A stretch of DNA of 64,000 nucleotides from positions 2,358,001 through 2,422,000 of the forward strand of contig NC_045144.1 in assembly GCF_008831285.2 (NCBI RefSeq), written 5' to 3'. The position numbers and the translations under genes are program-made. The notes under the pieces were generated by a model. The model made no database searches. It was not told where the DNA came from and saw nothing but the letters and a program-made list of their open reading frames with translations. How positions within the stretch are numbered: position 1 is the stretch's first letter; each line of letters opens with the position of its first letter. The stretch is from Nymphaea colorata (lineage: Eukaryota; Streptophyta; Magnoliopsida; Nymphaeales; Nymphaeaceae). Below, one piece after another: positions 8,498 through 37,270 of the stretch.

Positions 8498-8509
8498 TGG
8501 TATCAGAGC
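8498..8509 (+). promoter_or_regulatory. primer binding site (tRNA-iMet type)
   Basis: TGGTATCAGAGC lies two bases after the 5' LTR. This is the classic plant Copia primer binding site, complementary to the 3' end of initiator methionine tRNA. Confidence 0.92.
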
Positions 8510-8619
8510 CCTAGTTCATTGTTAAATCGTAGAACTTTTTTGGTGATTTCGTGCGTTCTTCCCGTTCGGATGTTTCCCTTTTGCTTCTGCTGCAAGTTTT
8601 TCAAAAAAAAAAAAGGTGA

Positions 8620-9235: not shown

Positions 9236-9257
9236 AATTGCCACCTCGCGCCCGAGC

Positions 9258-10988: not shown

Positions 10989-11797
10989 CATAGACACTTA
11001 GGACATATCTCTGAAAAGAAAATAAAAAGGCTTATGTCAAATGGAATTCTTGAGTCCCTTGATTTTGCAGACTTTAATGTTTACATTGAATGTATAAAGG
11101 GAAAATGAACAAACATTAAGAAAACAGGTGCAAGTAGAGCTTCAGATGTCTTAGAACTGATTCATACAGATGTTTGTGGTCCATTCCCTACAGCTTGTTG
11201 GAATAGACAACAATATTTTATCACTTTCATAAACGATGATTCTCGTTATGGCTACCTATATTTGATTTATGAGAAGTCTCAATCCTTAGACGTTTTCAAG
11301 TCATTTAAAGCCGAAATTGAGAATCAATTAAACAAATGATTAAAGTCGTTAGATCTGACCGTGGTGGTGAATACTAAGGTAGATTTGATGGATCAGGTGA
11401 ACAATGTCCAGGGCCTTTCGCTACGTACCTAGATGAATGCAGTATAGTCCCTCAATACACCATGCCAGGTTCTCCAAGAATGAATGGTGTAGCTGAGAGA
11501 CGAAACATGACTCTTATGGATATGGTAAGGAGTATGATTAATCATTCTACCTTACCAGCGTCCCTTTGGGGAGAGACATTAAAGACTGCAACTTATATTC
11601 TAAATAGAGTACCATCAAAAGCAGTACCGAAAACCCCATATGAATTATGGACATGCAAAATGCTTAGTATGAGGCATTATCATATTTGGGGATGTCTAGC
11701 TGAAGCGAGGCCATATAGGCCAAACGAAAGGAAACTGGACTCTAAGACGGTTAGCTGTTACTTTGTTGGGTATTCTGATAGGTCAAGGGGTGATTAG
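10989..11797 (+). pseudogene. Copia integrase remnant
   Basis: After the stop, HRHLGHISEKKIKRL continues the pre-integrase motif. The integrase core follows (LELIHTDVCGPFPT, then FITFINDDSRYGYLYL). The frame is broken around 11335-11460 and resumes as [20 protein letters not shown], the conserved GVAER region, up to 11797. Internal stops rule out function. Confidence 0.85.
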
Positions 11798-11861
11798 TTT
11801 GGGGGGGGGGGGTGATTAGGTTAGAAGCATTGCCTTTGAAGAGGGACCTGAGTCCACTCAT

Positions 11862-13673
11862 ATGGATGTTGTAAGCAATAGTCATGTATTCATTCCTGCC
11901 ATTGTTCCATTAACATATTCAGAAGAAGGCAATGATGTCGATCTCCTTATTGAAGAACAAACTCAACAACCTCAAGAAAATCAAGTAGAGGTGCCACTGA
12001 GGAGATCCACTAGAAAGAGGAGAAATACAATTTCAAATGATTTTGTCTATCTCCAAGAACATGATGTTGATATGGGCTTAATGGAAGATGATCCTATCAA
12101 CTTCCAGCAAGCAGTAAAGAGTTCTAAATCTCATAAGTGGATAAATACCATGAATGAGGAGATAAAGTCCATGATGGACAATGAAGTATGAGATATTGTT
12201 CCCTTGCCTGAAGGTGTGAAACTCATTTGTTGTAAATGTATATTTAAAACCAAGAGGGATTCATTAGGAAACATCGAAATGTATAAGGCATATCTTGTTG
12301 CAAAGGGCTTTATTCAAAAGGAAGACATTGATTATATAGAGACTTTCTCTCCAGTTTCGTCGAAAGACTCTTTCAGGACCATAATGACACTCGTGGCCCA
12401 TTTTGATTTAGAGTTGTGTCAGATGGATGTAAAGACAACGTTTCTAAATGGAGACATTGATGAAACGATATATATGGTGCAACCAGAAAACTTTGTTTCA
12501 AGAGATGCAAAGAAAATGGTCTGCAAACTTAAGAAATCCATCTATCTGCTAAAGCAAGCTTCCCGTCAGTGGTATTACAAACTTCATCAAGTTAAAGTTT
12601 CATTTGGCTTTGAAACTAATATGGTTGATGAATGTGTGTACCAAAAGTTCAGTGGGGGTAAATTTATCTTTCTGGATTTATATGTCGATGATATATTGCT
12701 GGCAAGTAATGATGTGGGCATATTGCATAAAACTAAGAAATTTTTATCAACAAAGTTTGACATGAAGGATCTTGGTGATGCATTTTTTGTATTAGGGATC
12801 CAAATATTTCGAGATCGTTCTCGGGGTATTATTAGATTATCACAAAAAACCTACATTGATAAGGTGCTTCAGCGATATGGCATGAAGGATTGTAAACCAG
12901 GAGATACTCCAGTTGCTAAAGGAAACAAGTTTAGTCTCAAACAGTGCCCTAAAAATGAAATCGAATCTAAGGAAATGGAAATGATTCTCTATTCGTCTGT
13001 TGTGGGAAACCTTATGTATGCTCAGGTTTATACTCGTCCGGATATTGCATTTATCGTTGGAATGTTAGGTAGATACTTAAGTAATCCAGGTATGAATCAT
13101 TGGAAAGCAGCCAAAAGGGTATTGAGGTACCTACAGAGAACAAAAAATTTTATGCTCACATACAAGAAGTCAGACCAGTTGAAGATCATTGGGTATTCAG
13201 ATTCTAACTTCGCTGGGTGCCAAGACAGTCGCAAGTCTACTTCAGGCTATGTATTTCTATTGGCTGGAGAAGCTATATCCTGGAAAAGTGTCAAACAGAC
13301 ACTTGTAGCTACTTCAACCATGGCAGCAGAATTCATAGCATGTTACGAGGCATCCAATCATGCCTTGTGGTTGCAGAATTTTGTCACGGGGCTGCGCATT
13401 GTGAATGGTATAGAAAGACCACTAAGGTTATTGTGTGACAGTAATTCAACAGTCATGTACTCTAATAACAGCCACAGTTTGTCAAAGTCGAAACACATCG
13501 ACATTAAGTTTTTTGCTGTTAAAGAAAGGATACAGAATGGTCAGGTGTCTTTAGAGCATATTGGGACAGACTCTATGATTGGAGATCCGCTTACCAAAGG
13601 TTTAACACCTAAGGTCTTTCACGAACATGTTGTTCGTATGAGGGTGTTGCCTTTAGATGATGTGCTGGTTTAG
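11862..13673 (+). pseudogene. Copia reverse transcriptase and RNase H
   Basis: Frame 11862-12191 continues into 12204-13673 across one TGA (NEV-stop-DIVPLPEGVK, where Copia has Trp). Reverse transcriptase motifs are KAYLVAKGF, QMDVKTTFLNGD and the catalytic YVDDILLAS. RNase H follows (DSNFAGCQDSRKSTSGYVF, then STMAAEFIA and the C-terminal KHIDIKFF region). A G-homopolymer at about 11800 separates this from the integrase frame. The last 489 residues are open. Confidence 0.92.
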
Positions 13674-14060
13674 TGAGAGTTTGTATTTTGTTTGCTCTTA
13701 TGTATGGACACATATTCAGTTTTCTGCATAATAAAGTTTAAAGTTCTTTGGTTCCATTCTGTATTTATGTGTTTTTTGATTTTCATAAGGTTTTAAAGTT
13801 GGACCAGTTGAGAATAGACATGTTGTAATCACATTACATGTAATTCTCATGCTATACATCCATATCAGATCTATGTCATTGGTTGTGTTAACATTTGTGA
13901 TCATTGAAGGTTTAACTAATTTTAATGTCGCGAAAGCCGCTTTGGTTCTGTGCTGATATGATCATAGACGAGATTGGTGAAAATGATGTTTAATAAGATA
14001 GCAGTTATGAACTCGTAAGGTTTTATGTAATGTCTGAATGTATAAAGACATATTTGGCCA

Positions 14061-14070
14061 AAGTGGGAGA
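14061..14070 (+). promoter_or_regulatory. polypurine tract
   Basis: AAAGTGGGAG sits directly before the 3' LTR, at the position and with the sequence usual for plus-strand priming in Copia elements. Confidence 0.88.
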
Positions 14071-14072
14071 TT

Positions 14073-14541
14073 GTAAGATCATTCGGTGAGCCGGCATATG
14101 TCTATGAGGAATTTCAGACATTATGGCTGTCTTAAGGTAAATATCCGCTTAAGTAATTGCGTTTTGGGATATTACGTCATTTTAGATGGTATGAGGTAAT
14201 TTTGAAACGTATAGATACCAGTATGCAATTACAGACTCTTTGATAGGTGGAATCCGTAATTGCCCTTAATATAAAATGGTAGTGGTCCATGGGGTCGTGC
14301 AATGGTTGTCTGAAACATTGGTTTCTAGGGTTTTCCTCTTCCCCATCTGAGAGAGGCCTCAGGCGCACAACAAAGACCCTGGAAGATCCTATCGTGATAT
14401 ACCGTCCAGTTCCTCAGATGGATTCAGGTATGCTTCCGCTACAGTTTAAGCTTATTTTGTTTAATTCAATGATTTAACGTAAGCATGATCCTGTTTTAGG
14501 GCATATCGTTTGTGTATGCATGAAGGGGAGAAATCCCAACA
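14073..14541 (+). repeat. Copia 3' LTR
   Basis: The repeat begins TGTAAGATCATTCGG and ends AATCCCAACA, followed by TCAAA. It is homologous to 8026-8495, with about 10 percent differences by hand count. Confidence 0.92.
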
Positions 14542-15442: not shown

Positions 15443-18400
15443 GGATCTATTTATGTAATTTTGATTGTCATTAAGGGACATTAAAGTGACGTCAACCACT
15501 ATTAGTGGTTAATATCGTCTTGTCACAACAAAAAAGTAAAACAACTACTTGTTGAAAAATAAAATATGTAAAATGTTAATGGGAAATATTAGATAATATG
15601 AATCAAACTTAACATTTAACAACTGAATACAAAATAACTCTACTGGAATAAGGGAAACGACTAATCGATTTGCAAACAAATTCAATTGGAATCATCGATC
15701 GGGGTTTATAACACTGCCCAATATATATCACTTAAGCTGCAATTATTTTTTTGACGCTTGGGACGGTTCTCTGAAATTTATTGCCCGGTTCTCTGAAATT
15801 TATTGCCAAATAGAAGTGGGAGGATGAGATCAATTCGGCTGCCATCACGTGGCTTGCTGCTATAAATTTAATTATTTCCCATGCTTGTGCAGGCGATGTA
15901 CGGATGCCAGCGCTGCATGGCCATTTATTTTCAATCCATCATTGGGGTCAAAGGACCATACTGTGAGAGTGAGAGTGAGTTAAGTTGGGTGTAAAGAAGG
16001 GAAAGATATTTTGGTAATTTGTTAAAAAAATGTTTTTTTACATTCGTTGTACTTTTTTCGATTTAATTTTTTGTCTTTACTAGTTATGAACTATATTGAC
16101 CCGTGAAAATTTGTCCACCAATATGACACATATAACAAGGTTTGGGAAACTTTACCAGCAAAAGGGTCAAGACTATTGAATATTTGAATTGAAGAATTTG
16201 AAGAGGATAACATCTTTGAGATTATTGCCATATCTTGCCAAGTTTGAAATGTTAGGGATGTAATGAGATGACAGCTCATAAAAGACAACATAGGATATCT
16301 TAAAATGAAAAAAAACATTGTCTGCTGGTATTAGATGATACTCACAAGATTATACAGCTTACATAATTAAGCCCCTTTGGCAATATTTATTATGTGCCCA
16401 TCTATTGAATCCAGTAAGTCTGGGAGATGCTGGTGAGCAAAATAAGCTTTCAACCAATGATCTAGAACCATAAAAAATTGCTTATGAAGGCAACTACATA
16501 TTATACACCAATATGAACAAATGTTGTTTGCTAAGATGGCATCACAAGTATGAGCCGACACTTTCCATGATATGTATACCAAAGGGACATACATATACTA
16601 GAAGAGTTGCACTTGAGAACTTTGTCTCCTAGCATGGGCACTTATACAAGAGATGTATGAGGAAGTAGATACCGATCTGCACCAGTGGGTCGTCTTAGTT
16701 ACGTGAAGGGAAAAAAGAAAAACAACAGTCTACAAAGTGAGAATCAACATGAATACCATCAAAATTCTCTATCTAAATTTAAAAAACATTCTCTTCAAAG
16801 GCCTCAAGTTAGTTCAACATGTAGCATGGACAATTATTAGCCAGTGAAACACTATAATGCATGGAGAATTGTTAAGATATCTTGAAAGGAAAATTGTAAC
16901 CAGCTATAACTAAACCTGATCATAATGCAAACAAAACATAATGAAACTTTCATATCATGCTAATTGATTTCATATGTTTCTTTATGACTGATACATTGTC
17001 CACAATACTCCATGATGTTGAGTCGATGGAAAAAGGAAGGGCATGAGTTCAGGTATGTTGTCTTTCTCCATGGCCTTTGGTTGTGCAGAAACTAAAAAGT
17101 TTGAGTGACCAAGGAACATTTGATAAAGAGCACTTGCAAGTGATCCAAAGGTGATGTGATAATCTGGTTCATTTGAGAAGAATTCGTTGATGTCTGGCAA
17201 GATTTTCATGAACACTGTATTTGGAAGAAGAAAACTTATAAAGGATGGGTCTAAAGGAAACATTGACACCACTTTGTTTGTATTAGCCCTAACAAAATGT
17301 ATCTTTTCCTAGTTTTAATATCATTGTTGAGCTTTTTGTATCTTGTAGCTTTCATTCCTTGAACTAGTTGCCATAGAACTCAACCTACCTTCAACTATTG
17401 ATAAAAAAATTGATTACTCCCTATTCAATAAACTTTTTCTTCTTTTTGGATTTGCAAGGAAAGATACCTCATATGCTGGCAGTTAATTTCTTTATATTCT
17501 TATGAAACTTGGCAGTGAATCACAAAGGCATCTAGAGGGCTGTTTATAGGAATATTGGCATCACTCTCTTTTGAATGCAACACTTTAGGTAACTATAATG
17601 TGTTATTAACGTCATATTTTTGAAAGTAATTATGTTGTCTTACATTGATCAAATTACAACATATTTGTGCTTAAGCATTTGCTCTTCTATCATTTGTCGC
17701 AGGTTTCATGCTCTGTTTCTCAAACCCAAGAAGGATCATAGGTATTGTACCTACTGAACTTCTACCACCATTCTATTGGCTATAGAGCCTTCACCTTGAG
17801 CATTTTTAATGCTTTTAAAGGGTTGAACATCATTCAAAAGGAATTGTAATCAAAGCCATCATCTACCACCATATCTACCACCATTCTGTTGGCTACAAGA
17901 AACCATCTTGAGCACTTAAGATTGTAATCAGCTAATTCTATGTTGGGTTATGTTTTACATGCCAGCTATGAAATATGTGATTTACTAAATCTTAGGTGGT
18001 CTCTATGAGTTTTCTTGGTGCAAAATTTTCACGCAGCCTACACTTTTTTTTTTCTTTTTTTTTTTTTATAGAGAATTAGAAAATTTGTTACAAAGTTATC
18101 AATTTGGAAACAAGAAAGTGAGCTATTGGTGATGGGTTCAAAAATGTTGTTTATGAAATTGTTGTGCACTTTACACATTGCTGATTTCTGAGGTAGTATA
18201 GAAATACATTTATGTTTGCTTTTCTTATGCTCTTTTTATGGATATCGGCTTTGATTCTTTCTAGTTTTTACAGCTTCATGACTGTTTTCATTCAAATTGC
18301 ATCTTATAGAATTTGAATTGTGTGGATACTATATGTAGGAACTTCAGTGTAGAGATCAAAGTATCTTGGGCCTATCTCATGAACAGATCAGAAATAGATT

Positions 18401-18499
18401 TCTAACAAAACTTTATGGTCTAATCACTGATTCGTCTGGTGCTAAAATGTTTAATCATTTACTAAAGCTACCAGACCGAAAATTTATGACGTTCCAAAA
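15443..18499. other. AT-rich intergenic with a weak coding-like block
   Basis: No gene was identified. A 23-base unit containing GGTTCTCTGAAATTTATTGC is duplicated in tandem at about 15765-15805. Minus-strand frames at 16982-17272 (contains ILPDINEFFSNEPDYHITFG) and about 16367-16594 read like coding sequence, but I do not recognise a family and no splice pattern could be fixed. They may be exons of a decayed gene. The rest holds T-rich runs only. Confidence 0.35.
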
Positions 18500-18515
18500 A
18501 AAATTAATAGATCTA

Positions 18516-18761
18516 ATGTTACACTCAATAAAGATTTATGATAGATGTATAGGGTGTACCCAATGAGTACGAGCGTGTCCTACAGATGTCCTAGAAATGA
18601 TACCTTGGGACAGATGTAAAGCTAAGTAAATTGCTTTTGCACCAACAACTGAGGACTGTGTAGGTTGTAAGAGATGTGAATCTGTTTGTCCAACGGATTT
18701 CTTAAGTATACGGGTTTATTTATGGCATGAGACAACCCGTAGCATGGGTCTAACTTATTAA
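18516..18761 (+). pseudogene. psaC: psaC pseudogene (photosystem I iron-sulfur subunit)
   Basis: Same length as plastid psaC (81 codons plus stop, no net indel). It keeps the two ferredoxin-type cluster motifs, CIGCTQ...RACPTDVLEM and [15 protein letters not shown]. Codon 17 (Cys) is TGA, so the second cysteine region of cluster 1 is lost. The Gln codon in the AKQIA motif is TAA. Other substitutions include Ser2 to Leu. It is non-functional in the nucleus. Confidence 0.95.
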
Positions 18762-19322: not shown

Positions 19323-20021
19323 ACACACACACATTATTTACTTTATGAATATTTATCTATGTTACGAATATTTAATTTTTAGTATTGATCTGAAGTTGTG
19401 TTATTATGTTAAAGCTAATTTTGTTCTTGGCTTTTGTGTTGGTAATTAATGTGGTTCTTCCCTTTAATGTAGTATAATTAATATATTAATGGGAAGAATG
19501 AGATACTACAAAGAAAAGTTTAATACTGACATAACGGTCACCTTATGGACTGAAGATGGACAATAAAATTAAATAACGTAACTTTTAGGGTGCCGATCAG
19601 AAAGTTTTTTTTATGTATCCGGTACCCAGGGGAAGGGCAAAAGACGATGGACATAATTGCCGTACAAAAGAGAATGCAATAACACATACTCGTGCGAGGA
19701 CTGCAAGAGAGAGAGAGAGAGTTGCTCCTCATTCAATCTTCCCCACCAAGAAAAGCGCCGTCACCAATGATTTGCGTATATGGATAGTGGGGAGTCATAA
19801 CGGATACCATGTGTGCAGAGGAGTTTTCTCTCTCTCTCTCTCTCGTTTTTTCCCCTGTGCTCCTCGGTGATCCTTTCAATACAAATCCAAAACGAAAATC
19901 AAAGATGATAAGGTCTTGTTGGCAACAGGGAAGAAATTGTGCTGAATGAGTTGTCCATGGAGAATTTATCTGGGAGTGCAAACAAGCCCTTAACGAAGTT
20001 GTCTAAACACAACTGGGTTAC

Positions 20022-20340
20022 TGAACTGGATTGGATCTTGAACTGAATCCAGTCATGGGGCTTCGTCCAGTTAAAAATGAAATTGGTGGGGAAGACCAGT
20101 TTCGGGCCTTTCGGCTTCGCGGAAGCATTCTCTGTCCGGTGCGTGGAATAGAGGATAAGCAAAGAAGGGAACAAGCGCTGGCATGGTCCGGACGATAGCC
20201 TATTAGCCTTCCCTTGTTCAACTTCTTTTCTCTCCATGCAGATTGTTCGTTATCCCCTGATCTCTCTACCGGGAGTTCCCCGAGATCAGCTGGAGTTTGG
20301 TCGGAGAACGGTCTTCTTGGGGCATCGGACACTGGAAATC
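20022..20340 (+). repeat. dispersed repeat copy A
   Basis: Blocks here match, in reverse orientation, 45545-45780. They share TTTTTAACTGGAC, GGATTCAGTTCAAGATCCAA, ATCAGCTGGAGNTTGGTCGG and CTTCTTTTCTCTCCATG. Copy A has an extra segment of about 100 bases. The family is unknown; the coding-like frames may be part of an old transposon or gene fragment. Confidence 0.65.
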
Positions 20341-21932
20341 ACCGCACCAACTAGGTTAACTTGTCAGCATTGTTTCGTTTCATCAACTATGATGAAGCAT
20401 GTTTCTCTTGTGTTCATATGTGTTTCTTTTACCTGGTTTGGTTCCATTCTCTATTCACATGGATGCTGCTAGGGTTGGAAAGAAGATCTTAATGTAGAGT
20501 GCAGATGGCATAAAGGTGACACTATTGCTCTTTGTGATGAATGTGGATTCATGAGAATAAGTACTATAAAAGCAATGTAAAAAAAGAAAGTATTAGTAAA
20601 AAGAGTATCTGGAATACCAAAATCTGTTTTTCATGATATTTATACGGGATTAAATTAGAATTTTGGTGAATTTTTGTTGCAAGATGATAAAGAATATAAA
20701 ATCAGATGTATCAACTGTTGTTCAAGCTGATGAGTTTGATTACAAGGATTCTGTTGATAGCTCTGTCTCATAGCACCAGGGCACAAAATATCTCTTTGAA
20801 GATGGGTAGCGATTGGTAAACAGTCTGCCGATCTACTTGTCGCACCTGTTGCGTTAAGTTTGCCAAATGCTAGTGAAGCTTTTCTTGCGGAAAATTGGCC
20901 CTGTGAACTAGAACGCCAAGTGCTTCATGCAATTTATTAGTTAAGTTGCTTCTCTGAACATGCAGGTGTTCCGTCTCTTTGGAACTGGTGTAGTTGGTGC
21001 AACCATCTGTCTGTACATAGAGCAATATGGAAACGATTCTTCAAAGACAGGATGAGATTCTCAAGAAACACTGGCTCATCTGGTACAAGAAGTTCACGAA
21101 TATCTTACAAACATATTTTACATGTTTGAAAATCACTGGTATGCCATCTAATGTGATTAAATTTTAGGTGGAAGTCGCGTTGAAGCTTTCCAAGATGCAT
21201 GAGTTCACCAGCCACTCTACTCCTACAGTTATGACTTGAGTGACATATAGCCACTTATGCAGGCATGAATTTTTGAACAAAGGGCTGATGAATCTATGAT
21301 TCAACTTTGCTTGAGAATAACGTCAAGAACCATGAAGCTCCCAATCATGTGGAGTGTTTGCATAGTTTTGCTGCTGGGCAAGCAACTCTACAGCTATGCT
21401 ATGTTAAATATATAAATGAACTTTGCCACTATGTTACTTTCTGCCTCAGTGAGCCTCTTATGAGGCATAGATCTCTCTCTCTCTTTCTCTCTCCATGTGT
21501 GTGTGTGTGTGTGCATGGGGAAGCTTTTTGGCATGGGACGTTCACGTGGACCATTCGCTTCAATGAGCCTTTTATATGGTAGGTGTCTCTCCCTCCCTCT
21601 GAATAGCAGCTGTCAGTTCTGCTGAAGGCATGGGATGGCCACGTAGATTGGTATCAGAATGTTGACATTGAATAATGCCTCCTCCAATTTCTTGTCCTGT
21701 TGGCGAGCTTCATTAGTTTCTTTGACTTTCAAGTGTCTTCAAGGTTTGAGCCTTTGGTTGTTTGATACCAGCTTGTTTCCATTTTCACATCCCTGTAAAG
21801 TCCTACTGGAACCTTTTCAAAAAAGGGAAAGTCTGTTTCCGTCTGTTGCAAACTTTTTCTTGGATTGAAGCTACCTAATTAATATACTAATCTAGTTAAT
21901 TCTCAAACTATTGCAACTGGTGGAGGCATTAT

Positions 21933-21986
21933 GTTGTTTTTGATCCATTGGATGGCTCTTCCAACATTGATAGTGATGTTTCAATT
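21933..21986 (+). pseudogene. FBPase fragment, copy 1
   Basis: Eighteen codons read VVFDPLDGSSNIDSDVSI. FDPLDGSSNID is the metal-binding signature of fructose-1,6-bisphosphatase. The flanks depart from the enzyme sequence, so only a fragment is present. Confidence 0.7.
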
Positions 21987-22675
21987 AGAATTCTTCCAAC
22001 ATTCATTGTGGCTGTTATCAGGTATTTTACGGTCAAAAAACATGTTGGCTTATATAAAAATTCTGAATTTTTGTTGTAAAAACCAACTTATTTTTTAAAT
22101 TACTTTTATGGGAGACAAATTATAACTTCTGGAAAAAGTTAAATGGTAAAAAAATTTTCATAGATGCTACCTCGGATGCCAACCAACTTAGACTAAGAAA
22201 GGGCTCATAGATGAGATACTACCATAGGGAGTGGGCTAAGGACAAGCTCTGGCAATTAAGAGAACTGTTATTCTTTGAGAAGCAGTGGTGGTTCTGTTGT
22301 TGGCAGTTCTGGGCTTGGGTTCACCAGTTCTATGGCTTATACCTTGAATAGCAGCTGTCAGTTCTGCTGAAGGCATGGGGTGGCCACGTAGATTGGCATC
22401 AGAATGTTGACATTGAATATATGCCTCCTTCAATTTCTTGTGCTATTGGCGAGCTTCTATAGTTTGTTTGACTTTCAAGTGTCTTCAAGGTTCGAGGCTT
22501 TGGTTGTTAATACCAGCTTGTGTCCATTTTCACATCCTTGTAATGTCCTCATTGGAACCCTATAAAAAAAGGGAAAGTCTGTTTCCGTCTATTGCAAACT
22601 TTTGCTTGGATTGAAGCTAGCTAACTAGTATACTAATCTAGTTAATTCTCAAACTGTTGCAACTAGTGTAGGCAT

Positions 22676-22732
22676 TGTGTTGTTTTTGATCCATTGGATG
22701 GCTCTTCCAACATTGATAGTGGTGTTTCAATT
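22676..22732 (+). pseudogene. FBPase fragment, copy 2
   Basis: This copy reads CVVFDPLDGSSNIDSGVSI. It is closer to the cytosolic plant enzyme (CVVFDPLDGSSNIDCGVSI) than to the chloroplast form. Similarity ends right after this block. Confidence 0.75.
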
Positions 22733-23413
22733 AGAATCCTTCCAACATTGGTTATGGCAGTTACCAGGTATTGTGTTGTTTACGGTAAAAAAACATGTTG
22801 GCATATATAAAAATTCTGATTTTTTTTCGTAGAAGCCAACTTATTTTTTAAATTACTTTTATGAGACACAAATTATAATTTCTGGAAAATTTAAATAGTA
22901 AAAAATTTTTCATAGATGCTACCTCAGATGCCAACCAACTTAGACCAAGAAAGGGCTCACAAACAATATCAACAAGGTTCTCAAACAGTGATTGTGAACA
23001 GGATAAAGAAACATACGGTTGGTAGTTTCGCTTCCAATGCAAAGACCTATATTGGACTAGCTCTCTTTTCATCAGGTTGAGAAACTGGGCTACCTCAGTT
23101 GAGTATGGTGGGGACATCACAAACTAAAAGATTGAAGGGTTCCACACCGCTACTTGAATAGGAAGTAGTGACTTTGTAGATTGAGGACACGGCAAGGCAA
23201 CCTACATCTCCAAAATGGTATTGGCAATATTGATATCACGACAACAGAGCACTATAGACCAGTAATAACTGGCAGTGGATTTTACAGCTTGGAAGCAAAT
23301 GACAAAGGCAAGCTGTGGCTCCACAGCTTCTACCGTTTGTCCTCATTGTGATTCTGCCTGATGGATTCTACAAAAAATAGAGCAAGAGAAGAAAGGAAAA
23401 AAAGTTTTGGAAA

Positions 23414-24236
23414 GAGCCGGTGAAAAGTATCAGTTCTACCAGCCCTTCCATGTGCCGGCCGTGGTTTTTCCAACACGGGCAAGCCCGTGCCTGGGTAAAA
23501 GCTGGGAATTACCTAAACTTGGAGTCTCCCTTTTTCCTTCTAGGAGGTTTCCACATGATATCAGGAGGTAGATGCAAACAAAGATTCACATTAAATGAGG
23601 GAAGAAATGCCTGAAGATTACTTTTCTACTTGTTTGCTGGCACCTGTGGTGGTACCAGAACAAGCTAGTGCATGAGGAAATCTCCTTGCAAGCTAGCAAG
23701 CTGAAGGAAGACATTTGGAGGAGTTGTATAGACTCCTTTGTGGGTACTAAATGGTCGAAAGAGGCTGAAGGCAAGTTGCGCTTGTGGATTCAAACTGGGC
23801 TGGTTTGTGTAGACAACTGTAGAGGCTCAGCAGACATGCTGATCATCAAAATCATTCTTATAAAGGTGGCAGGCTGTAACAGAGCTGCAGGACAATCTTA
23901 TTTTAGGGATGGTTTTAAAGGTGTGAAAATTCTGCTAACTCCAAGAGGAGGAGTGTTGGAGCGAGAGGTAGAGGTTCTTGAGAAAATCCTTAATTATCAC
24001 AAGGATTATGGTGGTCAGATAATCATCTTTTCTTCTGTGGATGTCTTAATCCGGAGGCTCCATCAGCATCTTGAAGGTAGGAACGTGTGGGGTAATTTCA
24101 GTAGTCTGTTAGAATCACTGAGACCAGAGTTAAGGAAGCAAAAGAGGATGCTACGGTTGATTTTGGTGTGTTCATCACTGCCCATTACAAGCAGAGTGGT
24201 GATTTCTATTGTGCAGATTAACGGTTGTCTATAGTT
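23414..24236 (+). pseudogene. LINE ORF2 C-terminal relic (RNase H region), left copy
   Basis: The translation includes CWHLWWYQNKLVHEE, the usual zinc-ribbon/linker pattern after a plant LINE reverse transcriptase. It then has an RNase H-like block (LTPRGGVLE, EVEVLEKILNYHKDYGGQII, DVLIRRLHQHLEGR). It ends at a TAG near 24236. Only the 3' part of a LINE is present. Confidence 0.6.
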
Positions 24237-25204
24237 TGATTTTCCATTTCTGTTTTCTTCTTGTTCTCTTGGAAGGTCGACTCAGCCCTTTGCTGTCAAT
24301 GACTGTGAAGATTGGCATTTGTATAGTGCCAACAATTCCCAGCATATGTAATTTTGTTTAATAAAGATAGGGGGCTCTAACCCCGATGTTACCTAAAACT
24401 CTATAAGCAAGGCCACCGGACCTCGTCCGACTGATTGATAACCTCTTGTTAACTTATAAAGCATTTGGAAATGAGCAAGACATGTTTTAAGGGAGGTTGT
24501 GACCAGCTATCCATTGGCCAAAGTCTAGATGGATATTGTGCTAACCCATCCAAACCTTTGGTTCCTTGAATTAAAGATCTGCTGTGACACATGACATTTG
24601 CACTTGATCTTGACGTTGCCAAAAGCGCAGTATTTGATTTTTTTTTTCTTTTAAATAGAAGTTCTGAAAATTGTAAGTTGGGGGTGTTTCTAGGAAGGAG
24701 GGGAAGCATGAATGGAGGAACTCAACTTTTTAATATAAAAAGATCGTTGAATTTAAAATGAAAAATTCATTCTCATTAAATTTTGCCATCACTCAAATAC
24801 TTTGTATTCGCTCCATAATCACTTATCTTTCTTTTTCATTGTTTTACTATTTTTTTCATTATTTTCTTCTTTGGGGCAACAGAGTGTGAGTTTGTTCTTG
24901 AAAAAAAAAAAAATTATAAAGCACACTTAAAGTCTTAAACTTTCAAGGTAGCAAAAAACTTCTCAAATTGTTTAAAAAGAAAATCATCTGACCTATGTTC
25001 TTGTTCTCTTGTATTCAATTTGAGGAAGTAAATAAAAAAAATTGCATGTATCTTTAAAAACCATTTCATCTTCTTTCTTATTGAATCAAACCACTCTTGT
25101 AATTGTAAACAAGAGCACGTTTGAGTGGGTATAAAAAATATTTTAAAATGCACTTGGTCACTCCAAGTGAAAGTTTGGGTTGGGGTGGCACTGCTTAGGA
25201 GTGG

Positions 25205-25415
25205 TTTTCGAAAATATTTCAAAATGCATTTAAAGGTTAGCCACGAAATAGTACTGCTCAACTTAGTACCCCACTATGATTCTTATTATTATCTACAAAG
25301 CCAGAAGTCATGTGTTTATCGACTCTTTTGTATACAATGTCATCATCGATGAGTTTAACTGCATACTAAACTTGGTAATCTTTCGATACTCATCGTGAAT
25401 GTCAAGTTATATACC
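25205..25415. other. spacer of the inverted duplication
   Basis: About 211 bases between the arms have no partner in the other arm. They are AT-rich without coding signal. An AATATTT(C/T)AAAATGCA motif of the left arm recurs at its start. Confidence 0.7.
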
Positions 25416-26370
25416 CACTCCGAAGAAGTGACACCCCGACCCAGACTTTCACTTGGAGTAACCATTTGCACTTTAAAATTCTTTGTATACCCATTCAAAC
25501 GTGCTCTTGTTTACAATTACAAGATTGGTTTGATTCAATAAGAAAGAAGATGAAATGGTTGTAAAAAATACTTTCGAACTTTTTTATTTACTTCCTCAAA
25601 TTGAATACAAGAGAACAAGAACATAGGTCGGATGATTTTCTTTTCAAACAATTTGAGAAGTTTTTTGCTAACATGAAAGTTTAAGTATCCTTTATAATTA
25701 TTTTCTTCAATAACAATTCACACTCTATTGCTCCAAAGAAGAAAATAAAGAAACAAATAGTAAAACGATGAAAAAGAAAATACCCAACTTCAATAAACAG
25801 TATTTGAGTGATGGAAAAATTTAATGAGAATGAATTTTTCATTTTAAATCAAAGGAGCTTTTTATAATAAAAAGTTGAATTTCTCCATTAATGCTTCCCC
25901 TCCATCCTAGAAGCATCCAACTTACAATTTTCAAAACTTCTATTTAAAGAAAAAAAAACTAATACTGCGCTTTTGGCAACGTCAAAATCAAGTGGGAATG
26001 TTATGTTTCGCAATCTTTAATTGAATGAACCAACAGTTTGCATGGGTTAGCGCAATATCCATCTGCATTCCAATGGATGGCTGGTCATAGCCTCTCATAA
26101 AGATGTCTTGCTGGTTTCCAAAAGCTTTATACCTTAACATTTATACCTTAACAAGAGGTCATCCATCACTCGGATGAGGTCCGAAGGCCCTCCATTTTCC
26201 TTGCTTCGGGAGTTTTAGGCTACATTGGGGTTTGGGCCCCCCTACCTTTATTAAACAAGATTACCTATACAGGGAAATGTGAGCACTATACAAATGCCAA
26301 TCTTCACGGTGATTAACAGCGAAGGGCTGACTCGGCTCTCCAAGAGAACAAGAAGAAAAGAAATGGAAAA

Positions 26371-27190
26371 TCAAAATATAGACTGCTGTAAATCTACACA
26401 AAAGAAATCATCACTCTGCTTGTAATGGGCAGCGATGAACACACCAAAATCAACCGTAGCGTCCTCTTTTGCCACCTTAACTATGGTCTCAGTGCCTTCT
26501 AACAGACTGCTGCAATTACCCCACACTTTCCTACCTTCAAGATGCTGATGGAGCCTCCGGATTAAGACATCCATATAAGAAAAGATAGTTATCAACCACC
26601 ATAATCCTTGTGATAATTAAGGATTTTCTCAAGAACCTCTACCTCTCCCTCCAACACTCCTCCTCTTGGAGTTAGCAGAATTTTCGCACCTTTAAAACCA
26701 TCCCCAAAACAAGATTGTACCGCAGCTCTGTTACAGCCTGCCACCTTTACCAGAATGATTTCGATGATCAGCATATCTGCTGAACCTCTATAGTCGTCTA
26801 CACAAACCAGCCCAGTTTGAATCCATAAGCGCAACTTGCCTTCAGGCTTGTTCGACCATTTAATACCCACAAATGAGTCTATACAACTCCTCCAAATGTC
26901 TTCCTTCAGCTTGCTAACTTGCAAGGAGATTTCCTCATGCACTAGCTTGTTCTGGTACCACCACAGGTGCCAGCAAACAAGTATAAAAGTAATCTTCAAG
27001 CATTTCCTCCCTCATTTAATGTGAATCTTTGTTTGCATCTACCTCCTGATATCATGTGGAAACCTCTTAGAAGGAAAAAGGGAGACTCCAAATTTAGGTA
27101 ATTCCCAGCCTTTACCCAGAAACGGGCTTGCCCATGTTGGAAAAACCACGGCCGGCACATGGAAGGGTCGGTAGAACTGCTACTTTTCAC
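26371..27190 (-). pseudogene. LINE ORF2 C-terminal relic, right copy
   Basis: This is the partner of 23414-24236. It has long open frames (27190-26996, 26999-26592, 26595-26371) separated by frame changes. It includes CWHLWWYQNKLVHEE and the RNase H-like FSYMDVLIRRLHQHLEGR block. This copy ends with VDLQQSIF and a stop. Confidence 0.6.
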
Positions 27191-28064
27191 CGGCTCTTTC
27201 CAAACTTTTTTAGTTTTCTTCTCTTGCTTTATTTTTTGTAGAATCCATCAGGCAGAATCACAATGAGGACAAACAGTAGAAGCTGTCAAGCCACAGTTTG
27301 CCTTTGTCATATGCTTCCAAGCTGTAATAGCCACTACCAGTTATTACTGTTCTATAGTGCTCTAGGGTCGTGATATCAATATTGTCTGTACCATTTACGT
27401 ATGCAATGTTGGAGATGTAGGTTGCCTTGCCGTGTCCTCAATCTACAAAGTCACCACTTCCCATAGTGCTGTGGAACCCCTCAATCTTTTCGTCCATGTT
27501 TTCCCCACCATACTGAACTGAGGTAGCCCAGTTTCTCAATGCCACGAAAAGAGAGCTAGGCCAATATACGTCCTTGCATTGGAAGCGAAACTACCAATTA
27601 TGTGTTTCTTTATCCTATTCACAATGACGCTTTGAGAACCTTGTTGATATTGTTTTTGACAATGATAGACAAGCTAAGGAAGAATGTAGTTACCTGAGAT
27701 ATATCATGGCCATAGAACTGGTGAACCCAAGCCCAGAACTGCCAACAACAGAACCACCACTGCTTCTCAAAGAATAACATTTCTCTTAATAGCCAGAGCT
27801 TGTCCTTAGCCCACTCCCTATGGTAGTATCTCATCCATGAGCCCTTTCTTGGTCTAAGTTGGTTGGCATCCGAGGTAGCATCTATGAAATTTTTTTTACC
27901 ATTTAACTTTTTCCAGAAGTTATAATTTGTCTCCCATAAAAGTAATTTAAAAAATAAGTTGGTTTCTACAACAAAAATTCAGAATTTTTAAATATGGCAA
28001 CTTGTTTTTTGACCTAAACAACACAATACCTGGTAACAGCCACAATGAATGTTGGAAGAACTCT

Positions 28065-28118
28065 AATTGAAACATCACTATCAATGTTGGAAGAGCCATC
28101 CAATTGATCAAAAACAAC
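28065..28118 (-). pseudogene. FBPase fragment, copy 3
   Basis: On the minus strand it reads VVFDQLDGSSNIDSDVSI, with the conserved Pro changed to Gln. It is the inverted partner of the copies at 21933 and 22676. Confidence 0.65.
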
Positions 28119-29693
28119 AGAATGCCTCCACCAGTTGCAATAGTTTGAGAATGAACTAGATTAGTATATTAATTAGGTAGGTTCAATCCAAGAAAAAGTT
28201 TGCAACAGACGGAAACAGACTTTCCCTTTTTTGAAAGGGTTCCAGTAGGACTTTACAGGGATGTGAAAATGGAAACAAGCTGGTATTAAACAACCAAAAG
28301 GTTCAAACCTTGAAGACACTTGAAAGTCAAATAAACTAAAGAAGCTCGCCAACAGGGCAAGAAATTGGAGGAGGCATTATTCAATATCAACACTCTAATA
28401 CCAATATATGTGGCCATCCCATGCCTTCAGTAGAACTGACAGCTGTTGTTCAGAGGGAGGTAGAGACATCTACCATATAAGAGGCAAATTGAAGCAAATG
28501 GTCCACGTGAATTTCCCATGCCAAACCCATGCACACACACACAAACACATGGAGAGAGAAAAAGAGTGAGAGAGATAGAGCTATGCCTCATAAGAGGCTC
28601 ATTGAAGCAGAAAGTAACATAGTGGCAAATTTCATTTTATATATTTAACATAGCATAGCCGTAGAGTTGCTTGCCCAGCAGCAAAACTGTGCAAACACTC
28701 CACATGATTGGGAATTTCATGGTTCTTGACATTATTCTCAAGCGAAGTTGACTCATATACTCATTAGCTCTTTGTTCAAAAATCCCTGCCTGCATAAGTG
28801 GCTACATGTCACTCAAGTTATAACTATTGGAACTGAGTGACTGGTGAACTCTTGCATCTTGGAAAGCTTCAACGTGACTTTCACCTAAAATTTCATCACA
28901 TTAATTAGCATACCAGCGATTTTCAAACATGTAAGACATGTTTGTAAGATGCTTGTGAACTTCTTGTACCAGATGAGTCAGTGCTTCTTGAGAATCCCCT
29001 CATGTCTTTGAAGGATCTTTTTCCTATTGCTCTATGTACAGATAGATGGTTGCACCAACTAAAGTAGTTCCAGAGAGATGAAACACCTGCATGTTCAGAG
29101 AAGCAACATAACTAATAAATTCCATGAAGTAGTTGGCGTTCTAGTCCATAGGGCCAATTTTCAGCAAGAAAAGCTTCACCTGCATTTGGCAAACTTAACG
29201 CAACAGGTGCAACAAGTAGACTGGCAAGCTGTTGTACCAATCTCTCCTCATCTTCAAAAAGATATCGTATGACCTGGTGCTATGAGACAAAGCTATCAAC
29301 AGAATCCTTGTAATCAAACTCATCATCTTGAACAACAGTTGATACATCTGATTTTATATTCTTTATCATCTTGCAACAAAAAGTCACCAAAATTCTAATT
29401 TAATCCCGTACAAATATTCAGAAAAACGGATTTTGGTATTCATTTCTCGATACTCTTTTTACTGATATATTTTTTTTTACATTGCTTTTATAGCACTTAT
29501 TCTGATGATTTCACATTCATCACAAACAGCAATGGTGTCACCTTTTATACCATCTGCACTTTACATTAAGATTTTCTTTCCAACCCTAGCAGCAAACATT
29601 AAGATTTGATACCATCTGCACTCTACATACAAACACAAGAGAAACATGCTTCATCAGAGTTGATGAAACCAAACAATGCTGGCAAGTTAACCA

Positions 29694-30682
29694 AACAATA
29701 CGTGTCTAATCCAACAAACACATGGTACTACTTATCACTAATCAATAACAGTGCACTCAGAATGCAATACTATGAAATATGATGCAGAACTGCAAATATC
29801 AGCCAGGTTAAACTATTCCATTCCATTCACTGACAGATAAAACTAGTTTAGAAAAGAAAAGTTTGTAAGTAGATCTTTACGAGGAGAAAAATTCCAAGAT
29901 CCTTTTAAGGGTCTAATCTCTTCCTGTAGAAAAAAAAATTTGAAGGAAATTGTTTGCTTAATTGCTTCCCCATTTTGGAAAGGGAGGTACTTAATCCTGA
30001 TTGGTGATTCTAAAAATGGATTTTATTAACTATAATAACAAATAAGCAATAGGGAATGATAGATGCAGGAAATTCGAGTATGGAGGCATCAACATTTGCG
30101 TTTGAAACAAAAAACCAAGAAGAAAATGAAAATGAGATCAAACTTTGTGAATCTCGTAGTAACAATCCAACATTGCAATCAATCCTTCAAATTTGCCTAA
30201 CAAAGGAGACAACCTGAAGGATATCATTCCCCTATCTCTAGCATTTGTACTCTTGATCATCCTTCCTTCTCAAGGGGACTCTGCACAATGAAACACTAAT
30301 GGAAACCTCTGTGTCATCAAATTCAGATGCCGTAATTTATTCTCAATATTTAAATTGAAGAGACTTTGCATGACAACGGTTTTTTACTAATCAATTGATG
30401 CATAAAGGGAGAACGTACCATGGAGCAACAAGTGAACAAGTAGCAAATTGTCAATCATAAATGTTACCATTGATTCATCATCCAGCAAAAAATGTTGAGA
30501 GCATTGTTGCATCACCTGTAGGTAAGGAGATGTGTTCGATCATTGAGGCCAAAAAATGGCAACAATTTGTTATTAGCATAGATAAATGGAGAGAATGAGG
30601 CTAACTTTTGAGCTTTATTGAGCATGTAAAAGGGGTCCGTGGAGGAGCACGGTGATGTATGAAAGTGATGCATAGAGGGAAA

Positions 30683-30723
<41 letters not shown>

Positions 30724-31020
30724 AATCTTTATGAATTTTTGAGTATGAAACGTAAGCATATAGAGGAAAAAAGGCATCAACTTAAATTATGGGAAAGGAA
30801 AAGCCCTACAATATTGGAGGGCCATTTGGTTTAAGAGGTCAGTCTCGACCCATGGCTTTGAAAGTGCCATGACTAAAGTGACTTCAGAACTTCTTTGTGG
30901 TGTTGTGATTGCTAAACTTCCTTGTATATTGCTTCTTAAGTATAATGTTTTTAAAATCTATTGATTTGTATGATACTCTTATGACTACTGATGTTTTTTC
31001 TGAGATTTTTTGATAAAATT
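29694..31020. other. intergenic, no gene seen
   Basis: AT-rich sequence. A GA microsatellite of about 40 bases lies at 30681-30720. No coding or transposon signature was recognised before the hAT relic. Confidence 0.4.
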
Positions 31021-31146
31021 ATGCAAGAAGTTAAGCTGGAGAATGTTATGGAATTTGTTATAGATAACGCAGCAAAGTATAAAGCTGCAGGTGAAATATT
31101 TGCAGCAAGATATAGGATATTCTATTGGAACCCATGTGCTTCACTC
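31021..31146 (+). pseudogene. hAT transposase fragment (DUF659 region)
   Basis: The frame reads VKLENVMEFVIDNAAKYKAAG, then a stretch ending FYWNPCASL. This is the V(V/I)TDNAANYKAAG...YWTPCAAH signature of plant hAT transposases. The frame stops right after CASL and no other transposase block was found, so it is a relic. Confidence 0.75.
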
Positions 31147-31930
31147 TAAGGTTTGATGTACAAGCCATTTAATTAATGGTTCTCTTATTTGAACGTCTAG
31201 AAATTGGATTTGGGTTTCAAAGTCACTTTTGAACTTGAATGAAAATTTGAAATTCAATTTTAACAATCAAAAGCTTGAATTTGTTTGCATCAGAGATTGA
31301 GAATTGATCACAGATTCTTTCAAATTATGGAAATTTTGAAGATTGGTTGGGATTTCGATTGAAAACTTGAATTAGCTTAAAATGATAAAAAATTCTTTTG
31401 AATTCTAGCAGTTTTGAAGATTTGCATTTGGATTATTGTTTTAGTCTCAGAATTGACATTGGAATTGGGAATTTGTTTTTGGATAGTTGAAATTGATAAG
31501 TTGAATTGCTACAATTTTGAAGAAAAATTGATTTGATCCAAAGATAGGAATTGGTAGACATTAAAGGTGGCAGGAATGATCGGATCTTGTACCAATGGGT
31601 AGGAGAAGATAAGGATGATTGTCATCATGCACCAGCATGCCGAATGGATGAATAAATCAATGATGTGTTTGTCAGTAGAAGCTGATATTGAAGTTGTTTA
31701 ATGTTCATTTTCTTGTACTAGCAATATTCAATGATAATTCTGACCAAAGAATAAGCTGGAGGTACCTTCATCCTCGAGGACTCAGTAGTAGCAGACAACT
31801 ACTTATTGGCAGTAACAGAGCTCCATATTTGCTGGTGTGGGTAGTTGCCCACGCTAGCAACAAATTCTTTTATTTATTTTTACATAGATGTCTTACAATT
31901 ATTTACTTATTTATATATTTTGTGTCCCTT
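31147..31930. other. AT-rich stretch between hAT relic and hAT-like end
   Basis: The sequence is dominated by degenerate TTGAAT/AATTTG repeats at about 31190-31520. It may belong to the same decayed hAT element. No coding domain seen. Confidence 0.35.
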
Positions 31931-34734: not shown

Positions 34735-37270
34735 AGACATGATTGCATATGCCCTCGCACACACCTCATGTTGTCAGTAAAAAATAAAATAAATGTTCCA
34801 TTGAGGCTGATTAAGAGCGATCCATGACACGGTTTTGCAGTGTCATTTCTAATAAGTCATTGCACACAACCTCAACAAAGCACCTACCATATGGTTGTTA
34901 TTTCAAAAAAAAGGCTAAGGACGATTGCAAATCCAATTGAGGCTGATCAAGGGAGATTCTATGGTCGACCATGCATGCACCTCAAGTTGTTAAATGGAAG
35001 GACTGCAATTGTGTATACGAATGTTGGTCAAATGGTGTTGGACTTTATACCTTAAGTTGTTGGTCAAACATATGGTTTGAAAAAGGTGAAAGGTGAGTGG
35101 ATGACAGATAGAAGCCGATAGAGGGGGATCTCCAGTCCGATAATGTTTTCTAGAGCCTTTCCCTTTAGGACACACCAAACTACTTTGTAACCGCAGGCAG
35201 TCTTGCTAAACTATTCATGTTGAACAGTAGCCTGGAACACTGCTGGTCAAGTAGGAACCATCCTCATTGTTAGGATGTGGACCAAACCATTCTCTAGAAG
35301 TTGGACTTATTTGTAATAATGGACTAAGAAGTGTGAAAAATGCACAATCGATTAGTGACTATGCATAGGCTCGCACAACACCTACCTACCTTATGATTAT
35401 CATTTCAAAAAAAGGTAAGGGAACTTCCATGCCTGATTGATGCCGATGAAGGACAATTGTATGCCCGATTGTGCTTTCCAGTGCATGTTGATCAAGTTGT
35501 TAAATGGAAAAACTCCAATTGTGTATAAGAATGTCAGTCGAATGGTCTGAGGGCTTATATCTTAAGCTATTGTTGAACATATTGTTTGGAAAATGAGAAG
35601 GGCAATTGTAGAAATGGTAGAAGCTGATGAAGAGCAATCTCGAGTCTAACACTATTTTCTAGAGCCTTTCTCTCTGGAGATGCACTAGACTACTTGCGTA
35701 AGAGCAAATAATCTTCCTAAACATAGTTCATGTTTAACAGTTGCTTAGAGCATTGCCGATCAAGTGGGGATCATCATCAATGTTAAGTTGTTGACCCAAA
35801 CCAGTCAATAGCTCTTTATGGATACAATGTACAAATCAAATTATGTACATGAAGCTTGAGCATGTGGTCTTTCTTGTGATAATAAACAAGAAAGTGTGAA
35901 AGAAATCAAACGACAAACAATCGCACATAGCTTCACACAACACCTATCTTATAGTTTTCATTTCGAAAAAAGGGTAAGGTGATTGCATGCTCGATTAAGG
36001 CTGACGAAGGAAGATTGTATGTCTAATCATGTTTCCTTATGCACACTTCTCAAGTAGTCATATGGAAGAACTCCAATTGTGTGTAGAAATTTTGGTCAAA
36101 TGGTTATAGGGCCTACACCTTAAGTTGTAGTTGAATGTGTAGTTTGGAAAAGACAAAGAGGTTATATGACCAATTGAAACCAATATAGAGTGATCCCAAG
36201 TGTAGCACCTTTTCTAGCACCTTTCCCTCTAGGGACACATCAAACTATTTATGCAAGAGAAAATGGTCTTCCTAAACTTGGTTCATGTTCAACAACGAGC
36301 TGCATCTTTGTCGATCAAGTGAGGATCATCCTCACTTTACGTTGTCGAACAAATCAGTCAATGGCACATTGTGGATGCAATATCCATCTCAAACTGTGTA
36401 CATGAAGCTCGAGCAGGTGGTGTTGCTTTCCATCATGAACTAAAAAGTATGAAAATTTGCATCTGATATGATACCACACACTACTTTGCACAACACCTAC
36501 TTTATGGTTGTTGTTTTGAAAAAAGGCTAAGGGACCCTCCTCATGTTGTCAAATGAAGGGAGTCTGATTGTGTGTATGATTGTCGGTCAAATGGTCATAA
36601 GACTTGTAACTTAAGCTATTAATCGAACGTGTGGTTTGGAAATGACATAGGCGAATTTATGATTGATAGATGCTGATGAAGTGCAATCCTAAGTCCAACA
36701 CTATTTTATGGAGTGTTTCTCTCTAAAGATGAACCAAACTACATATGTAAGAGCAAACGATCTTTCTAAACCTGGTTCATGTTCAACTGTGACTTGGAAC
36801 ACTGCAAGTCAAGTGGGGATTATCCTCATTGTTAGGCTGTAGACCAAACCAATCAATGGCTCTTCATGGATGCAATATCTAACTAAAGCTATGTATGTAA
36901 AGCTCAATTTGTGTACAAGGTGATCTTACTTGTGATCATGAAGTGAAAAGTGTTAAAAGTTTGCAAACAATAAGAGATTGCACAAATCATCACATAGCAC
37001 GTACCTTACATTTGCCATTTTAGAAAAAGACTAGGGGTGATTACATGCCTGATTGAGGCCAATGAAAGGTGATTGTATGCTTGATCATGTTTTTGAATGC
37101 ACGCTTCTCAAGCTATTAGATGGAGAGACTTCAATTGTGTATATGAATTTTAGGTAAATGATCGTTGGGCTTATATGTTCAACTATCAGCCGAATGTGTC
37201 GTTTGTAAAAGGTGCACGGTGATTGCATGCTCCATTTATATTGATGATAGCTTGAACCTAATTGAGTAAT
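34735..37270. repeat. tandem array, five units of about 500-560 bases
   Basis: A conserved anchor (GCACCTACC, TATGGTTGTTATTTC, AAAAAAGGCTAAGG) recurs at 34891, 35393, 35951, 36504 and 37009, giving spacings of 502, 558, 553 and 505. Within units, blocks such as CAATTGTGTATA, TTTTCTAGAGCCTTTCCCTCT and ATGGATGCAATAT return in the same order. Units are clearly diverged and have internal deletions. A partial unit precedes the first anchor. There are no long shared open frames. Confidence 0.85.

Follow-up and report, generated by a model that had tools for sequence, protein, structure and literature searches.

The window, the whole stretch of 64,000 nucleotides of Nymphaea colorata DNA that was analysed, contains a near-palindrome of about 9 kb in all, with a left arm of 4.95 kb and a right arm of 4.28 kb. 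A giant inverted duplication at 20353..29693, with arms of about 4.9 and 4.3 kb, had been claimed in a sequence-only reading, and self-BLAST of the window together with a global arm alignment confirms it, placing the outer limits within one base of those positions (20354 and 29692). The parts and their flanks are as follows.

20354..25301, + strand, left arm, which is copy L of a repeat block and is cut off at 20354
25302..25410, no strand, spacer
25411..29692, - strand, right arm, which is the mirrored portion of copy R of the block
29693..31719, - strand, continuation of copy R beyond the palindrome, shared in whole or in part with copies at 1.72, 1.80 and 1.86 Mb

Self-BLAST paired 20354-22336 with 29692-27709 (90.1%, minus strand) and 22957-25204 with 27659-25415 (87.0%, minus strand), while global alignment gave 90.3% identity over 4213 aligned positions (K2P 0.104). 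The arm-to-arm alignment, proposed beforehand as a check, thus ran across 4.2 kb, far beyond short repeats, and the difference of about 10% agrees with the earlier view that the arms have diverged and that the structure is old or came from two family members. Because of this divergence and the many indels between the arms, a single-molecule hairpin sequencing artefact would not explain the structure. The arms have 784 distinct 21-mers in common, which is far above the chance level, given that at most two were shared in any of 135 arm-sized window pairs outside the repeat (200 drawn, 65 dropped for overlap with it). The BLAST matches stand 210 bp apart, close to the spacer of about 0.2 kb originally suggested, but the spacer itself is 109 bp, since left-arm homology to relatives reaches 25301. 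To the right, homology runs on past the arms to 31719 in copy B and to at least 31800 in other C7 stretches, and 20354 is therefore the truncation point of the left copy.

Gene fragments and mobile-element debris in the arms

The block reads as a mosaic of DNA-level fragments of several genes and mobile elements. No intact gene was recognised among the 22 distinct arm frames searched, and no known structured RNA was matched by Rfam in the window at gathering thresholds. The recognisable pieces are these.

20568..21490, + strand, phosphoglucomutase fragment, left arm (85% to C8:18120007-18120910)
28563..29489, - strand, phosphoglucomutase fragment, right arm (84% to C8)
21817..21990, + strand, fructose-bisphosphatase (FBPase) fragment, left arm (87% to the C13 gene)
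22562..22736, + strand, another FBPase fragment, within the tandem copy of the left arm (90% to C13:4771758-4771932)
28062..28234, - strand, FBPase fragment, right arm (85% to C13)
22188..22337, - strand, DUF1685-linked exon piece, left arm (88% to C5:9432504-9432653)
27709..27857, + strand, DUF1685-linked exon piece, right arm (88%)
22957..23400, + strand, neprosin-like pseudogene piece, left arm
27215..27659, - strand, neprosin-like pseudogene piece, right arm (Pfam PF03080 on 27441-27590, E 1.4e-6)
23599..24387, + strand, LINE/RNase-H-like piece, identified by eye
24476..25301, + strand, dispersed mobile-element segment ending the left arm (matches on several other contigs)
25411..26092, - strand, same mobile-element segment, right arm (about 86 bp missing at its inner end)
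30985..31146, + strand, DUF659 fragment in the outer part of copy R (PF04937, E 5e-9), which we take to be hAT-type

The left-arm phosphoglucomutase fragment holds three C-terminal exons, two introns and 3' flank, and the FBPase fragment at 21817..21990 holds the end of an exon, a complete intron and the start of the next exon (exon limits of both were read from splice signals). Both therefore keep introns, as in DNA-level gene capture by Pack-MULEs or Helitrons. FBPase and phosphoglucomutase both belong to sugar-phosphate metabolism. The nearest genomic matches lie on C8 for the phosphoglucomutase piece, on C13 for the FBPase piece and on C5 for the DUF1685-linked exon, which runs antisense to the other gene fragments; its C5 match adjoins a DUF1685 domain, and exon and domain presumably belong to one gene. 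The neprosin genes at 1.497 and 1.802 Mb were rejected as the source of the neprosin piece, having protein similarity alone and no DNA match to it, and closer relatives are found on C6, C7:23.3-23.6, C1 and C11. The sense strands of the phosphoglucomutase, FBPase and neprosin pieces point toward the centre from both sides, and that of the DUF1685-linked exon points outward. The suggestion that two family members lie head to head thus holds for the two members, which are, for these three pieces, tail to tail.

The LINE/RNase-H-like piece had no Pfam match above the cut-off and no PDB match, and its part at 23908-24387 is also a dispersed repeat (about 69% identity). Within the spacer, positions 25302-25390 are similar to the sequence flanking a truncated mobile-element piece next to copy B, the 1.72-Mb copy on C7, and the remaining 20 bases (25391-25410) had no match in that flank.

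The block family and the ancestry of the arms

In genome searches, at least eight close copies of the block, full or partial, fell in the 1.48-2.39 Mb interval of C7; C11 has an older relative that keeps the order neprosin, DUF1685-linked exon, FBPase. Weaker relatives of single pieces were found on other chromosomes, and the pieces are therefore not confined to C7. Within the stretches and matches examined, the block stands unpaired at six other places (copies A to F). The frame at 23599-24231, considered as an intact gene, was dismissed, being open in L and broken in R, A, B and C. The outer ends, in R coordinates, differ among copies (L 29692, D 29965, A and C 30.1-30.7 kb, E 31628, B 31719), and the inner junctions are of two kinds, one shared by D and E and the other by A, B, C, L and R. 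At least eight low-copy blocks clustered on C7 with varied ends are what a local segmental duplication family presents.

The five long copies are 89.4-91.8% identical in pairs, with L and R at 90.1%. The two arms are hence not more similar to one another than either is to other copies, which rules out a single fresh inverted duplication as a simple account and indicates that two already separate members were placed tail to tail. This was the second of two alternatives offered by the sequence-only reading, and both the identities and the maximum likelihood (ML) trees support it. In the trees L groups with B outside two tracts (ultrafast bootstrap 100, 3186 gap-free columns) and with R inside them (bootstrap 100 in 21700-22300, 99 in 20500-20755), and support for L with B drops to 71 when the tracts are included; internal branches are short relative to terminal ones. 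Over most of their length the arms sit on different branches of the family.

The difference in arm length is owed mainly to a left-arm tandem duplication of about 0.6 kb, delimited by self-BLAST (90%) and not present as a duplication in copies A, B and C.

21600..22207, + strand, first tandem copy, right-arm-type sequence
22345..22959, + strand, second tandem copy, not of right-arm type

The first tandem copy has 14 sites shared with R alone and the second has none. Of 28 sites that join L and R, 17 fall in 21450-22340, a number reached in 0 of 20000 label shuffles (the limits had been set with the sites already in view). The FBPase stretch is 97% identical from arm to arm.

Origin of the palindrome

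The best explanation, to which we give a probability of roughly 0.7, is that two members of a locally multiplied block came to lie tail to tail as a side-product of local duplication and without any selected effect. The copies would have spread by local segmental duplication, and the mobile-element segment with which each block ends on its inner side would have brought the pair together. Compared with the arrangement next to copy B, about 1.5 kb may then have been deleted, which would have drawn the arms to within 109 bp of each other. Tract phylogeny suggests that the arms later exchanged sequence at least twice and that one exchange left the tandem duplication.

The two tracts in which L and R are sisters could also be read as remnants of an in-place inverted duplication, in which a break in the mobile-element segment was repaired by copying from the neighbouring inverted segment and then through the block, making the left arm a daughter of the right. 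The abrupt left end at 20354, where copy R continues past 31.7 kb, fits such an event, and since the left arm is a mosaic, later conversion from B-type sequence could have followed it. The grouping of L with B outside the tracts and an overall L-R identity not above that of other pairs make this origin rather unlikely.

The presence of several unrelated gene fragments in one block, two with introns, is typical of gene-capturing elements, and the conserved order in the older C11 relative is likewise what would be expected if a giant-TIR element, Pack-MULE or Helitron had captured the pieces and moved as a unit. The same ends are not found in all copies, however, and the inner junction of D and E differs from that of A, B, C, L and R, while block sequence runs on past the right end. 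Self-comparison of A, B and C revealed no terminal inverted repeats bounding the copies: A, whose outer end is truncated in that locus, and B each contain a single inverted pair of about 300 bp, with the two pieces on the inner side, and C contains none. All three are single blocks, although in A and B an inverted 300-bp piece of the dispersed element lies nearby. With adjacent gene fragments like those of Pack-MULEs and Helitrons, but no shared ends, bounding repeats or transposase in the sequence examined (for transposase, the arm frames searched), movement as a unit is quite improbable.

The inner junction carries 20 unmatched bases, and these count against the two-member origin. They are also where an assembly error would have falsely joined two non-adjacent family members (25391-25410), and such repeats are hard to assemble. 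The inner flank of the left arm is, however, also present beside B, and two exchange tracts unique to L and R among the five copies suggest that the arms are neighbours, which renders a false join very improbable.

Potential for hairpin RNA and siRNA

Long near-complementary arms and a short spacer, as in inverted-repeat siRNA loci, are present here, and the central 891 nt have a folding energy of -412 kcal/mol, compared with -162 (sd 8) in 20 shuffles. Exact matches to genes elsewhere, which are needed solely for action in trans, are found as 21-mers in the C13 FBPase exon (24) and in two C8 phosphoglucomutase exons (5), with 46 more beyond the C8 phosphoglucomutase stop codon. An exactly matching FBPase stretch of 40 nt lies at 21932-21971, and the phosphoglucomutase 3' flank at 21322-21416. 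There were none at the C5 locus, the FBPase relative at C8:11.31 Mb or the 1.497-Mb neprosin gene, or in a 30-kb control from elsewhere on C7. That a transcript feeds Dicer-like enzymes, as the sequence-only reading proposed, is a possibility. If there is a transcript, it would form double-stranded RNA that corresponds in part to two or more metabolic genes located elsewhere, and these matches mean that the hairpin RNA could in principle target FBPase and phosphoglucomutase, as proposed for soybean GmIRCHS.

GmIRCHS is described as a candidate silencing locus, a pseudogene repeat of 1,087 bp arranged tail to tail around a gap of 78 bp (PMC13051633); it is reported to include the promoter portion of a DnaJ gene, with two identical 10.91-kb clusters in the other allele (PMC13051633, PMC6710647). 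At the soybean I locus, silencing of chalcone synthase is presented as established, and deletions involving GmIRCHS undo it (PMC13051633, PMC6710647). The water-lily repeat is likewise close-set and tail to tail, sits among related duplicated copies and could in principle yield double-stranded RNA matching genes elsewhere, but it mixes four gene families where the soybean accounts describe one, has arms 10% different and is known from sequence. It resembles the long inverted repeats IR71 and IR2039 of Arabidopsis, although their precursor RNAs are reported as detected, that of IR71 being probably processed by DCL2, DCL3 and DCL4 (PMC4687873). Two inverted pseudogene pairs described in rice are also neighbouring members of one family on opposite strands, but give hairpin siRNA from stems of 154-185 bp with mapped small RNAs, unlike the 4.2-kb stem here (PMC2708354).

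That the palindrome is a working siRNA locus, in which transcription reading through from one flank would produce a hairpin of about 4 kb, to be cut by DCL2/3/4 into siRNAs that act on the locus family and perhaps also on the mRNAs of FBPase and phosphoglucomutase, is favoured by the shared 21-mers, the strong central stem, the exact gene matches and the soybean parallel. The arms are decayed debris, however, the exact gene matches are short and a mismatch occurs at every tenth base on average, so that such a function is unlikely. Its odds overlap with those of the two-member origin, with whose structural part it is compatible. It is highly improbable that the locus is a multi-target RNAi cassette, with siRNAs from a several-kilobase hairpin of phosphoglucomutase, FBPase, neprosin and DUF1685 pieces tuning at least the FBPase and phosphoglucomutase genes and with arm exchange keeping the FBPase stretch well paired. 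The same block appears unpaired in six other places and the arms are debris, and hence the palindrome need not be the selected unit. Most likely it has no selected effect at present, being no more than silent repeat DNA from which some siRNA may arise, and it is probably a neutral by-product and genomic debris.

Significance

Natural inverted pseudogene repeats are one known route to new silencing loci in plants. The palindrome is still seen alongside its single-copy relatives and the recognisable nearest matches of its gene pieces, and this makes the assembly of the locus, the exchange between arms and any siRNA production against other genes all testable, the last in concrete terms since the arms carry identifiable gene pieces with exact 21-mers. 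If the locus is silent, it would be a clear case of a long palindrome arising as a side-product of local duplication.

Structure of the palindrome

The sequence-only reading placed an inverted duplication at 20353-29693, and self-comparison of the window confirmed it to within one base. BLAST pairs the arms, L and R, in two pieces (90.1 and 87.0%) covering 20354-25204 and 29692-25415, and their global alignment (4213 positions aligned) gives 90.3% identity and a K2P distance of 0.104. They have 784 distinct 21-mers in common, and control pairs in the window share at most 2 (200 pairs drawn, 65 discarded for overlap, 135 used). The extra length of the left arm is mainly a tandem duplication of ~0.6 kb, and the middle of the palindrome folds with z = -32 versus 20 shuffles. 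At a plant rate of ~6.5e-9 substitutions per site and year, the K2P distance would put the split of the two arm sequences, not the palindrome itself, at an age of the order of 8 million years. The features of the palindrome are:

20354-25301 (+), left arm, L
20568-21490, phosphoglucomutase (PGM) piece
21600-22207 and 22345-22959, first and second tandem copies in L
21817-21990, FBPase piece, with a partner in the tandem copy
22188-22337, piece of a DUF1685-linked exon
23599-24231, LINE-like piece
24476-25301, dispersed element
25302-25410, spacer
25411-29692 (-), right arm, R, a copy that extends to at least 31719 outside the palindrome
27441-27590, neprosin-like piece

Gene and mobile-element pieces

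The PGM piece is 85% identical to C8:18120007-18120910, a locus encoding a C-terminal part of phosphoglucomutase (Pfam PF24947, E 2e-14 and 2.8e-12; PDB matches to phosphoglucomutases for one of two frames), and the matching region spans two introns and 3' flank, with exon limits taken from splice signals read by eye. Both the FBPase piece and its partner in the tandem copy match a section of an FBPase gene, C13:4771758-4771932; this 175-bp section runs from the end of one exon through a complete intron into the beginning of the exon bearing the FDPLDGSSNID motif; the arms' own Pfam matches fall under the curated cut-off (E 5.9e-6, 1.1e-4 and 1.7e-6), and a second FBPase-like place, at C8 11.314 Mb, matches at 87%. 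The piece at 22188-22337 is 88% identical to a stretch of C5 that has no Pfam match in its own frame and is adjoined by a DUF1685 domain (E 7.9e-5), and the two would belong to one gene. The neprosin-like piece lies above the Pfam cut-off (E 1.4e-6). By eye, 23599-24231 resembles the RNase H end of a LINE, with no Pfam match above cut-off and no PDB match; 23908-24387 is a dispersed repeat (~69% identity). Outside the palindrome, copy R holds a DUF659 piece, presumably linked to hAT elements.

In an older relative at C11 11.808 Mb (81% over 21743-22338) the order of the neprosin, DUF1685-exon and FBPase pieces is the same; nothing matching the PGM piece was found in the 5 kb fetched from there, so stepwise assembly of the mosaic is probable. 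Single pieces of the block have weaker relatives elsewhere, such as at C11 20.49 Mb (79-82%).

Surroundings

A Ty1/copia-type retroelement occupies 8026-14539, where two 468-bp direct repeats, 90% identical and probable LTRs, surround pieces of Pol_BBD, SH3 and RVT_2, each in its own frame. A fatty acid hydroxylase gene (PF04116) is represented at 2262-4641 (-) by two pieces, one above and the other just under the curated cut-off, and TPR-repeat frames (+) at 53229-54287 and 58578-59021 are perhaps exons of one gene. Direct repeats cluster at 34851-37229 (units of ~0.3-1.2 kb, ~67-72% mutual identity), and a 64-bp unit is perfectly duplicated in tandem at 62679-62806, probably recently. A neprosin-gene fragment at 47270-47922 is 87% identical in DNA to a stretch beside block copy C (1.802 Mb) and 80% to a neprosin gene at 1.497 Mb, with no DNA match to the palindrome's neprosin piece.

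Copies of the repeat block

The genome searched comprises 408 Mb in 783 contigs, the window lying at 2358001-2422000 of C7 (25.5 Mb). Copy counts are lower bounds, as the search scores best candidates only. With 24000-26500 as query, 24000-24476 matches at least five places, namely both arms and C7 1.567 (A), 1.721 (B) and 1.799 Mb (C), and the dispersed element at 24476-25301 also matches on C4, C8, C11, C12, C13, C15 and C780. With 19900-24470 as query, a further copy, F, appears at C7 1.4996-1.5017 Mb, including the 24000-24470 part, together with partial copies D (1.482 Mb) and E (1.857 Mb). The close copies on C7 between 1.48 and 2.39 Mb, full or partial and counting L and R, thus number at least eight. 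Homology to copy R reaches 31719 in B and the query end, 31800, in other C7 stretches; R and B still match outside the outer limit of the palindrome, whose end at 20354 simply reflects truncation of the left copy at that point.

A repeat at 47923-49757 also flanks D and E (83-87%), so this neighbourhood and the 1.48-1.86 Mb region have more debris in common. Around the dispersed element, stretches L012-L016 carry a several-kb repeat with near-identical long copies (98.7% between L013 and L014); in L012 this repeat lacks a 110-aa frame, and in L015 it has a 122-aa frame.

Relationship of the arms

The five long copies (L, R, A, B and C) are 89.4-91.8% identical in pairs. In trees from gap-free columns (HKY+G, ultrafast bootstrap), L groups with B at 100 over 3186 columns outside two tracts, and with R inside them, at 100 in 21700-22300 (553 columns) and 99 in 20500-20755 (252 columns). 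The tract limits were picked after inspecting the site pattern, and the L and B grouping falls to 71 with all columns except the second tandem copy. Of the two tandem copies in L, the first has 14 sites common to R alone and the second none, the latter being nearest to C (93.7%), then B (92.3%). Arm-to-arm identity peaks over the FBPase (97.1%) and DUF1685-exon (96.7%) pieces because of an exchange tract; the four remaining segments compared give 87.5-91.9%.

It is less likely that an in-place copy was later overwritten by B-type sequence. On the plain reading, two distinct members of the family came to lie side by side and then exchanged sequence, one exchange leaving the tandem copy, which supports the earlier guess of two family members as the origin.

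At the inner junction, the mobile-element end of the left copy and spacer 25302-25390 match B 18231-18567 at 78%. There the same element recurs, inverted and truncated, ~1.4 kb away from the block of B itself; a comparable piece is present in A and matches only as far as 25306. Relative to B, ~1.49 kb is missing from the window between 25390 and 25411. Since A and B carry such pieces and the window lacks this sequence, the family probably already contained inverted pairs of the element before the two blocks came close in the window, and a deletion would have drawn these blocks together.

Hairpin potential and nature of the locus

Exact 21-mers in the palindrome number 24 from the C13 FBPase locus, all exonic, and 83 from the C8 PGM locus (1 and 4 in two exons, 46 beyond the stop codon, 32 intronic or crossing exon borders). 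None came from a 30-kb control elsewhere on C7, the C5 locus, the FBPase relative at C8:11.31 Mb or the 1.497-Mb neprosin gene. Unpaired copies hold the same gene pieces, whole or partial, so these matches need not be specific to the palindrome.

The nearest parallel to the palindrome is soybean GmIRCHS, a pseudogene repeat in tail-to-tail arrangement that has a gap of 78 bp and has captured a promoter (PMC13051633). Arabidopsis IR71 shows that precursors of this kind exist, probably cut by DCL2/3/4 (PMC4687873). Function as a hairpin locus is a minor hypothesis for the palindrome, which is of a known kind, an inverted pair in a local segmental duplication family.
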